A stretch of 64,000 nucleotides of DNA. Origin: Stenotrophomonas sp. NA06056. Lineage in GTDB: Bacteria; Pseudomonadota; Gammaproteobacteria; Xanthomonadales; Xanthomonadaceae. The stretch covers positions 868,001 through 932,000 of the forward strand of contig NZ_CP054931.1 of the NCBI RefSeq assembly GCF_013364355.1. The letters are read 5' to 3'. Below, one piece after another: positions 44,947 through 48,058 of the stretch. Both the position numbers and the translations under genes were made by a program. A model generated the notes under the pieces. It saw only the letters and a program-made list of their open reading frames with translations, did no database searches and had not been told where the DNA came from. How positions within the stretch are numbered: the stretch's first letter is position 1; the number at the start of each line of letters is the position of its first letter.

Positions 44947-45303
44947 CTACTCTGGCCGGATATCCCGGCATACCAGCTCTGCCAGCCCGCGGCAGGCGAA
45001 GAACAGCCCGTCGATCACGCCGTCATCCAGATGCCGGTCCGGCGTTGCCATCGATCGGCAGCGCTCGGCGGCATGCAGCATCTCTGCCACGGTCAGCATG
45101 CCGACGGCTGCCCGTTCCACGCGTGACAGTGCCACCCCGCGCCCTGTGGGAAGGCTTGCATCCGGCCAGGGCTGGCCGTCTGCACCTTCGCCCGTTCGGA
45201 TGCGTTCGAGGCAGCCCAGGAAAGTGCTCAGTTCGGGCGCGGGGTTGTCATCGTCGTCGTTGACGCTGGCGGCATATGAGGCATAGGGCGGACGTTCGGT
45301 CAT
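44947..45303 (-). CDS. Small hypothetical protein behind a structured leader
   Basis: 118 residues, no signal peptide. An acidic N-terminus (VNDDDDNPAPEL) is followed by a mostly helical C-terminal half (VALSRVERAAVGMLTVAEMLHAAERCRS, then DGVIDGLFFACRGLAELVCRD). GAGGAAG lies just upstream of the ATG. I do not recognise it; the helical second half faintly recalls small DUF proteins common in pseudomonads and xanthomonads, but I would not assign one. Its leader (45304-45530) has three helices, two of which interleave, so expression may be controlled through RNA folding. Confidence 0.7.
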   Translation of the reverse strand: MTERPPYASYAASVNDDDDNPAPELSTFLGCLERIRTGEGADGQPWPDASLPTGRGVALSRVERAAVGMLTVAEMLHAAERCRSMATPDRHLDDGVIDGLFFACRGLAELVCRDIRPE

Positions 45304-45530
45304 CTCGGCTTCCTCGGCTCTGGGGTGGGAATGCCACCGCGTGAGGCGGGTGGCGGACGGTGCGTGTCTGCAAGCCGGGAAGACAGTAAGCAGTTAACCG
45401 GCGGATCCGAAGACCCCCACGCACCGCCCGCCATAAAGGCCGACGGATCACCCGCCGGCACGGTCCGGAGACAGTGCCGACGGGTGAGCGCAAACAACAT
45501 GCTTTTTGTCTTCCCAGGCTTGCAGGCCCG
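45304..45530 (-). ncRNA. Structured 5' leader with pseudoknot topology (candidate cis-regulatory RNA)
   Basis: On the minus strand, in order: helix P1 left arm (45526-45507), hairpin P2 (45486-45474 with 45461-45449, 13 bp, 12-base loop), P3 left arm (45432-45418), P1 right arm (45385-45368), P3 right arm (45366-45352). P1 and P3 cross, the H-type pseudoknot order, with their right arms one base apart as needed for coaxial stacking. P2 and P3 each have one imperfect pair; both read as G.U on the minus strand and A.C on the plus strand, which points to a minus-strand RNA. A smaller hairpin (45354-45333) sits nearer the start codon and overlaps P3 by three bases. Confidence 0.55.
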
Positions 45531-46038
45531 GTGCCACCCGTTGTCGGTGGCGCAGCATGGTGTTTACGCCCGCGCTTGGAGTTCAATCAGAATTTTCCGA
45601 AGGGAAATGCGGACTCCAGACGCGTGGCGATGGTGGCGCAGGCGTGTCTTGCGCAGCAAGCGTCAGTACACGACGTATTCGCTTCCACGTTTGGTTGGTC
45701 ACGTTGGAAAATGGCGCAAATCGCATATGGCGGGGCATCTGCCGTGAACCAACGCGTGTAAAGCTCACTTCACTTTTGCCATCAAAGTCCTCCGTGCGTG
45801 CCAGCCGTCCCCGCCGCGTTTCGGTGCAGATGCGACGGCAGCGGCGTCCTTGGCGGTTCAAACGCGACACGTGGCGGTGCACGCGCGGTATGGGGGGCGT
45901 ACCTCGGCGCGATTCACGGGAAATCATCCACGCATGGCGTGGATCTACGCATCCGGCAGGGATGTTGAGCGTGCCGCAGCCGCCAACGCTCGTGTCCGGG
46001 CGCTATGCTCGGTGTCTTTCCCTGGATGGGTCGCCCCA
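45531..46038. other. Region without a recognisable gene
   Basis: About 500 bp with open frames on both strands, none with a convincing start site or family, and lower GC than neighbours at 45580-45790. It probably contains the promoter for the structured leader on the minus strand. A SMAG unit (GATCCACGC type, minus orientation) lies at 45926-45948, and the promoter of the following esterase should be after that. Confidence 0.5.
45926..45948 (-). repeat. SMAG palindrome (GTAGATCCACGC type)
   Basis: ATCCACGCATGGCGTGGATCTAC: stem ATCCACGC / GCGTGGAT with CTAC at the end. Confidence 0.85.
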
Positions 46039-46975: not shown

Positions 46976-47911
46976 ATGCAGCGTGTGCGTGGATGGAGTG
47001 TGCTGGCCTGCCTGGCCCTGGCAGGTTGCGCGATGTCGGTGGCGCCACCGGCGACGCAGAATGAAGCCAAGGACGCCGCGACGGCCGTGCAAGGCGTGGT
47101 GCTGCCCGATACCGAATCCCTGCGTGTACATGACCCGATCGGGCGCGACTATGCCTTGTGGGTGGCATTGCCTGCCGGCTACGCGGCACAGCCGCAGAAG
47201 CGCTACCCGGTGCTGTATGTGACCGATGCGCTGTACAGCTTTCCGCTGGTGCGCAGCGTGCGCAACCTGGTGGGGCAGCAGGGCATCAACATCGAGGATT
47301 TCATCCTGGTCGGGCTGCCGCCGCAGGAAGGCCTGACGTCGAAACAGAGCCGCTCGCGTGACTACACGCCCAGCGAGCCCGTGCGCGACAGGCCTGGTTA
47401 CTACAGCGATGACGTCACCTACGGTGGCGCGGCCCACTATCGCGACTTCGTGGCCGACCACGTATTGCCGATGATCGATGCGCGCTACCGCACCGATCCG
47501 GCGCGGCGGGCGTTCGCTGGTCATTCCTATGGGGCCCTGTTCGGCGCCTATGTGTTGACCACGCGGCCAGATATGTTCCGGACCTACATCCTGTCCAGTC
47601 CTTCGCTGTGGTTCGACCAGCACCTGCTGCCGCGCATGCAGGACGAGGCGAAGGCACCGGCGAACCCGACACGCGTGTTGCTGTCAGTCGGCAGCTACGA
47701 GACGGTCAAGCCGGGCCCACGCTATTCAACCGGCAACGACATGCTGCGGCAGGCCGCTGACTTCACCGCCCAGCTTGAGCGGAGTGGCCGCACGCTGCAG
47801 GTGGACAATGTGGTGATCGACGGTGAGGACCATCTCACGGTGTATCCGCGCGTGATCACCCGTGCGTTGTTGCAGGTGTTTCCGGGTGAAGGGCCGTACA
47901 CGGGCGGTTGA
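46976..47911 (+). CDS. Lipoprotein esterase-fold hydrolase (paralogue 2)
   Basis: 311 residues. Lipobox LAGC (Cys18) predicts a lipid anchor. Hydrolase features: YPVLYVTDALYSF, nucleophile elbow GHSYGALFGAY, SSPSLWFD and His in DGEDHLTVYP. It resembles the preceding gene in domain layout but differs in targeting and elbow sequence, so the pair is an old tandem duplication or two members of one family. ATG at 46976 has GGAG seven bases upstream. Substrate unknown. Confidence 0.82.
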   Translation: MQRVRGWSVLACLALAGCAMSVAPPATQNEAKDAATAVQGVVLPDTESLRVHDPIGRDYALWVALPAGYAAQPQKRYPVLYVTDALYSFPLVRSVRNLVGQQGINIEDFILVGLPPQEGLTSKQSRSRDYTPSEPVRDRPGYYSDDVTYGGAAHYRDFVADHVLPMIDARYRTDPARRAFAGHSYGALFGAYVLTTRPDMFRTYILSSPSLWFDQHLLPRMQDEAKAPANPTRVLLSVGSYETVKPGPRYSTGNDMLRQAADFTAQLERSGRTLQVDNVVIDGEDHLTVYPRVITRALLQVFPGEGPYTGG

Positions 47912-47922
47912 TTGCCGATCCC

Positions 47923-48058
47923 ATCCACGCATGGCGTGGATCTACTGCTTCAATCCACACACGGCGTGATACCGGCGGTTGATGTTGGGCGGCATCCACG
48001 CATGGCGTGGATCTACTGTATCGGGCGCGGAGTCAGTAGATCCACGCCATGCGTGGAT
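47923..48058. repeat. Cluster of three SMAG palindromes plus a degenerate one
   Basis: GATCCACGC-type units at 47923-47945 and 47994-48016 (minus orientation) and 48036-48058 (plus), the last two facing each other, with a decayed ATCCACACACGGCG copy between the first two. Together they occupy nearly the whole gap between convergent genes. Confidence 0.88.

Follow-up and report, generated by a model that had tools for sequence, protein, structure and literature searches.

The closest described relative of the element examined here is the C4 antisense RNA (RF01695) of the immI regions of phages P1 and P7, which is reported to be cut by RNase P and to act on target mRNAs (PMC5320573). The annotation of the phage P1 record places its parts in the order a1, b1, c4, a2, b2, icd, ant1. 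The CI RNA of phage P4 is reported to pair with both an upstream and a downstream target on its own transcript, leading to termination (PMC4825925), and in Burkholderia isrK and C4 have been reported as a single transcription unit (PMC4603805). Two C4-related motifs, c4 and c4-a1b1, are listed in Weinberg et al. 2010 (PMC2864571), a study cited by a paper on C4-like RNAs of Acinetobacter baumannii (PMC5320573) as predicting C4 in Xanthomonadales. A search of the open-access literature found no account of the Stenotrophomonas C4 set described here.

The locus lies in a window of 64,000 nt, the whole stretch of DNA that was analyzed, from Stenotrophomonas sp. NA06056. A first-pass annotation had proposed an undescribed regulatory RNA here, a pseudoknot-type leader built from three helices (P1, P2, and P3) ahead of an orphan small gene. 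The gene's own strand does carry a conserved regulatory RNA, but its core is an already described one, because positions 45438-45346 match the Rfam C4 model at 57.6 bits against a cut-off of 45; C4 is the sole family over cut-off at the leader. It belongs to a large chromosomal set of C4s, in which each copy fits its own target and the majority stand before a small gene. On the minus strand the leader runs from hairpin A through the target, hairpin B, C4, and hairpin Z to the GAGGA site and the ATG, with the following features:

45584-45592, minus strand: promoter-like element TTCTGATTG of presumptive function, about 150 nt upstream of C4, with similar elements at other C4s.
45533-45551, minus strand: hairpin A, mostly invariant and with 98.9% of cells paired in 15 orthologs.
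45500-45525, minus strand: target, complementary to the C4 loop and made up of a1 (45525-45517), b1 (45515-45507), and a distal patch (45504-45500).
45448-45487, minus strand: hairpin B (P2), with arms 45487-45470 and 45465-45448, between target and C4 and not followed by a U-run; four of 13 counted pairs are changed on both sides.
45346-45438, minus strand: C4 antisense RNA (RF01695).
45434-45418 with 45366-45350, minus strand: closing stem of C4 (P3), 99.2% paired in orthologs.
45385-45377 and 45376-45368, minus strand: C4 loop segments b' and a', which pair with a1/b1.
45333-45354, minus strand: hairpin Z, read by eye, which shares bases with the C4 closing stem on its 3' side.
44947-45303, minus strand: small-protein gene of 118 aa, with its ATG at 45303 and a ribosome site, GAGGA, at 45315-45311.

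Elsewhere in the window, short palindromes ATCCACGCATGGCGTGGAT recur at 45925-45960 and 47910-48050 (seen by eye in the DNA and the ORF translations) and are probably a dispersed repeat of the genus.

The three helices of the first-pass annotation sit where it had placed them and are conserved in orthologs, and the 3' arm of P3 does end 48 nt ahead of the ATG and overlap a further hairpin. P3 is the closing stem of C4, and P1 is the pairing of C4 a'/b' with an upstream target, whose placement resembles that of a1/b1 in phage P1. This antisense helix joins 45525-45507 to 45385-45368 in 9+9 bp with one bulged base, and the distal patch adds a pairing of 45504-45500 with 45392-45388. We read the locus, with a probability of about 0.6, as one copy of a chromosomal self-targeting C4 module, in which a leader target, a C4, and a small-protein gene would share one minus-strand transcript and the C4 would limit its own module. 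The C4 match, the P1-like order of elements, the cognate pairing, the coevolution of b' and b1, a unique perfect target, and the presence of C4 upstream of the family gene in all 20 loci examined (of 30 from a protein search) support this reading, and the reported processing of C4 (PMC5320573) and action of an RNA at an upstream target (PMC4825925) provide precedents for it.

Covariation in homologous leaders bears the structure out. The fold of the minus strand from 45560 to 45304 beats 200 of 200 dinucleotide shuffles (z -5.8), and among 15 orthologous leaders the full structure contains 12 pairs changed on both sides, compared to 4.9 +/- 1.4 in shuffles, none of 500 of which reaches 12; the whole structure stands above all 500 on each measure. 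This statistic ignores relatedness, whereas a slide control does not and also favors the structure, as shifting the partners by one to three columns lowers whole-structure pairing from 93.4% to 33-45%. Within the interleaving antisense helix, seven of 23 pairs are changed on both sides and 85.5% of cells are paired in the same 15 orthologs. The covarying b1 and b' segments occur there as 10 and nine distinct sequences, respectively, and b1 is the fastest-changing part of the leader, with a mean pairwise difference of 0.366 (0.315 for the hairpin B loop, 0.209 for b', and 0.015 for a1 and a'). Among 194 ortholog pairs with differing b1, 9% reach at least the score of their own cognate. In some orthologs part of the b pairs is unpaired, which counts against the self-targeting module.

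Conservation of both interleaved helices would be expected of a cis switch as well as of an antisense RNA with its target. In such a switch, which comes near the idea of the first-pass annotation, a pseudoknot of target and C4 loop within one transcript would compete with C4 folding and so set ribosome-site access or processing. Both conserved helices could form on one transcript, and the minimum-energy fold of the leader does join the target to the C4 loop in cis. However, the order of elements is that of the P1 antisense system, 99.2% of cells preserve the C4 stem, trans action is reported for C4 loops of other families (PMC5320573), and hairpins A and Z, whose arms are joined in the minimum-energy fold, appear by eye to change independently in paralogs. 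We consider a cis switch unlikely. The interleaving of P1 and P3 makes better sense if an antisense RNA meets its target, following the example of phage P1, than if a riboswitch-like pseudoknot forms.

The genome of the window contains 19 C4 matches at E 0.001, 15 of them over the cut-off, and most of the 19 fit their own upstream DNA best. Using a gap-penalized local score, and requiring the cognate pair to be best in both row and column with ties counted as best, cognates were best at 17 of 19 loci in this genome, 20 of 26 in G065, and 16 of 22 in G069, and none of 20,000 permutations reached the cognate total in any of the three. An earlier version of the scoring, with 200 nt of upstream DNA, gave 16 of 19 rows in the window genome. 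For the window pair the duplex energy is -40.5 kcal/mol, compared to -26.3 for the best of 18 non-cognate targets. Duplex energies over windows trimmed to loop and target placed the cognate first in its row at 12 of 19, 20 of 26, and 11 of 22 loci (0 of 20,000 permutations), figures which count against the self-targeting module. The same is true of energies over long GC-rich windows, where the cognate came first in none of 19 rows, and of L016 and L018 of the window genome, which fail to match their own upstream DNA. The strongest cross-match observed is that of L121 in G065, at 16.0 versus 11.0 for its own target. Because b' and b1 differ between copies yet match within a copy, the copies are likely to be regulated apart from their paralogs.

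Many C4s in one cell could also be trans-acting small RNAs whose main targets are other transcripts, of host or phage, a role suggested for Acinetobacter Group 1 RNAs, with the upstream match tuning only the level of each RNA itself. Multi-copy sets occur in both organisms, and the Acinetobacter copies are reported to vary in the a' region (PMC5320573). Against this, cognate upstream matches dominate in all three genomes, and for the window C4, the sole C4 searched, no further genome site stands out from what the reversed pattern yields by chance: allowing up to three mismatches, the target pattern finds eight sites, of which its own alone is perfect, and the reversed control finds four. We consider a mainly outward-directed role to be quite improbable.

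The gene downstream of the window C4 is likewise one of a set and not the orphan of the first-pass annotation. At 16 of the 19 copies an ORF of 75 aa or more, starting with ATG, lies 27-46 nt downstream of C4, the exceptions being L015, L016, and L019; L016 and L019 are decayed copies. Fourteen of these 16 ORFs belong to one family with an ADGQPW-like motif, for which a profile search of the genome also gives 14 members, and the other short ORFs, at L012 and L018, fall outside it. No curated family match was found in Pfam and NCBIfam (nine of the 14 members) or PADLOC (four members), PHROGs returned for the window protein, the one searched, a 12-bit match at chance level and nothing else, and the family model gave no informative fold match. 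A large protein database holds 313 relatives; among the best 120 of these, proteins are called hypothetical where named and nearly all are from Stenotrophomonas, with one labelled Pseudomonas (metagenome) and one cluster labelled "STAS domain".

It is conceivable that these proteins are harmful if freely made, each C4 serving as the RNA antitoxin of its neighbor; this would be compatible with the self-targeting module and would add a claim about the protein. The insulation of the copies fits such a toxin-antitoxin-like set, as does the position of C4s of other genera ahead of SymE_toxin genes (six of 10 proteins scanned) and antirepressors. The family itself matches no known toxin in the libraries tried, nor an informative fold, and we regard this extension as doubtful.

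The RNA is a C4, and its cognate pairing has been selected for. In the self-targeting module as we envisage it, target, C4, and gene would be carried on a single minus-strand transcript. The promoter-like element (TTYCTSATKG-like) is found about 142-159 nt 5' of 30 of the 67 C4s of three multi-copy genomes (G000, G065, and G069), compared to 11 of 536 windows of equal size in the flanking DNA, and at one of 21 C4s in other genera. C4 would be excised from the leader, presumably by RNase P as in P1 and P7, with ends expected near 45432-45349 (minus strand) by comparison with phage P1. Its a' and b' could then bind a1/b1 in leaders of this kind, chiefly by acting in trans on newly made transcripts, and thereby limit the amounts of leader, C4, and gene product, each copy acting on its own leader and insulated from its paralogs. 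The most likely effect is that the module, through a1/b1, negatively controls its own transcript, and the most likely route would be the ending of transcription or destabilization of the leader, by analogy with P4 CI RNA at its upstream target seqA. The route is a guess, as the C4 modules show no terminator from target to gene, a point that counts against the self-targeting reading; since no U-run comes after the target, the mechanism would have to involve Rho or an RNase.

C4 is present in 57 of 91 genomes of the genus, with six or more copies in 46, one or two in 11, and none in 34 (hand count). Relatives of the window protein at E 1e-15 follow the multi-copy genomes, occurring in 43 of the 91, namely 42 of the 46 multi-copy genomes and one (G031) of the other 45. 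The multi-copy exceptions are G069, G023, G011, and G089; G069 has distant members, with 15 of 21 downstream ORFs matching the profile, and G023 has one weak protein match beside C4. A sample of the family has C4 in 53 of 247 genomes, 44 of them from other genera with one to five copies, and a class-wide sample in 24 of 369, with at most six copies outside the genus. Outside the genus the protein was found in one genus only, as a single copy in each of six genomes (297 genomes searched; two of 54 genera in all). C4 over cut-off lies nearby at three of these six loci, where isrK scores 51.7 bits, over its cut-off of 50, and 44.8 and 34 bits, below it; loci of this type may resemble the ancestral form. 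A single C4 beside a single family protein occurs in the genus at G031:C1:1601338-1601826, possibly a founder-like state. In other genera of the family, C4 lies directly 5' of Pfam SymE_toxin genes over cut-off at L082, L087, L090, L091, L092, and L095, where a SymE toxin is possibly under C4 RNA control; a literature search on SymE and C4 antisense found no paper. At L097:479-546, in another genus, int-alpA RNA (RF02996) lies about 1 kb upstream of C4, in line with a mobile-element setting at that locus.

Since C4 is a phage RNA and two copies (L016 and L019) are decayed, the set might consist of decaying prophage immunity remnants with no present function. Orthologs nevertheless retain compensatory changes and intact genes, the window protein has no match in 50,697 phage records, and 10 of the 19 modules have at least one flank in common with a G065 module, which points to old, inherited places. 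It is very improbable that these are mere remnants, and a working self-targeting module remains our preferred reading. A separate observation concerns L017 of the window genome and L145 of G069, whose flanks are alike with the sides swapped, as if the same site were occupied in the opposite direction.

Taken together, the genus may have domesticated a phage immunity RNA and expanded it into a shared set, with as many as 26 C4s in one genome, acting as mutually insulated antisense switches, the majority of which guard a member of one small-protein family of unknown role, in a logic near that of type I toxin-antitoxin sets and with recognition sequences diverging fast and in step; we offer this wider picture tentatively, at somewhat less than even odds. 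The set is a natural collection of roughly 15-25 antisense pairs that share one scaffold and one cell and seem free of cross-reaction, and rules of antisense specificity can be read from it and tested. It also offers a way to approach a widespread protein family that has no name, and raises the question of what role a C4 RNA plays where the ribosome-site target and terminator that usually accompany it are missing.

A comparison with phage-type loci shows what is missing. Of 24 C4 loci of other genera, 23 carry an antisense stretch of 7 nt or more in the first 60 nt downstream, versus eight (hand count) of the 67 C4s of the multi-copy genomes (19 from the window genome, 26 from G065, and 22 from G069), and a run of at least 8 nt is found at 15 of 24 versus one of 67. 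A T-run of five or more between target and C4 occurs at 19 of 24 versus none of 67. The set has therefore retained and extended its upstream target but is missing the ribosome-site target and the terminator. The window locus (L009) has a longest downstream run of 6 nt within 60 nt, and no second target of the a2/b2 type. Phage-type C4s also occur within the genus, six of seven further loci having a T-run together with a run of 7-10 nt downstream. The c4-a1b1 model (RF03163) finds P1 itself but nothing between 45200 and 45700 even at E 1, and nothing over cut-off at the 19 loci of the window genome, where isrK (RF01394) is also absent over cut-off; among 20 phage-type loci including P1, c4-a1b1 matches five and isrK four. 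By eye, b1 at L106 (phage P1), L034, L042, L080, and L096 adjoins the first arm of a small hairpin between target and C4, the second arm of which can alternatively form a hairpin followed by a U-run, an arrangement that looks like a C4-controlled attenuator.

Like the immI C4 of P1 and P7, the module has the C4 fold and the a1-b1-c4 order, with a'/b' matching an upstream target in a like place. Unlike P1, where our scoring retrieves the a1/b1 match as two 7-nt runs, the window target has 9+9 nt of pairing plus a distal patch; module copies lack a2/b2 at the ribosome site, a U-run terminator, and icd or ant, b1 is not the ribosome site in most copies, and many insulated copies share a genome. 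The isrK-then-C4 prophage loci, as reported for Burkholderia, also have a leader 5' of C4 in one transcription unit, but isrK is not found over cut-off at the 19 loci of the window genome. Phage P4 CI RNA, with seqA and seqC, resembles the module in being a processed leader RNA whose target lies upstream in the transcript it comes from (PMC4825925), although it is a different RNA, and termination belongs to the P4 case. The Acinetobacter baumannii Group 1 C4-like RNAs are described as sharing the many copies per genome and the variable targeting segments (PMC5320573), while in the Stenotrophomonas set each copy has a cognate upstream target and usually a downstream gene of one family.
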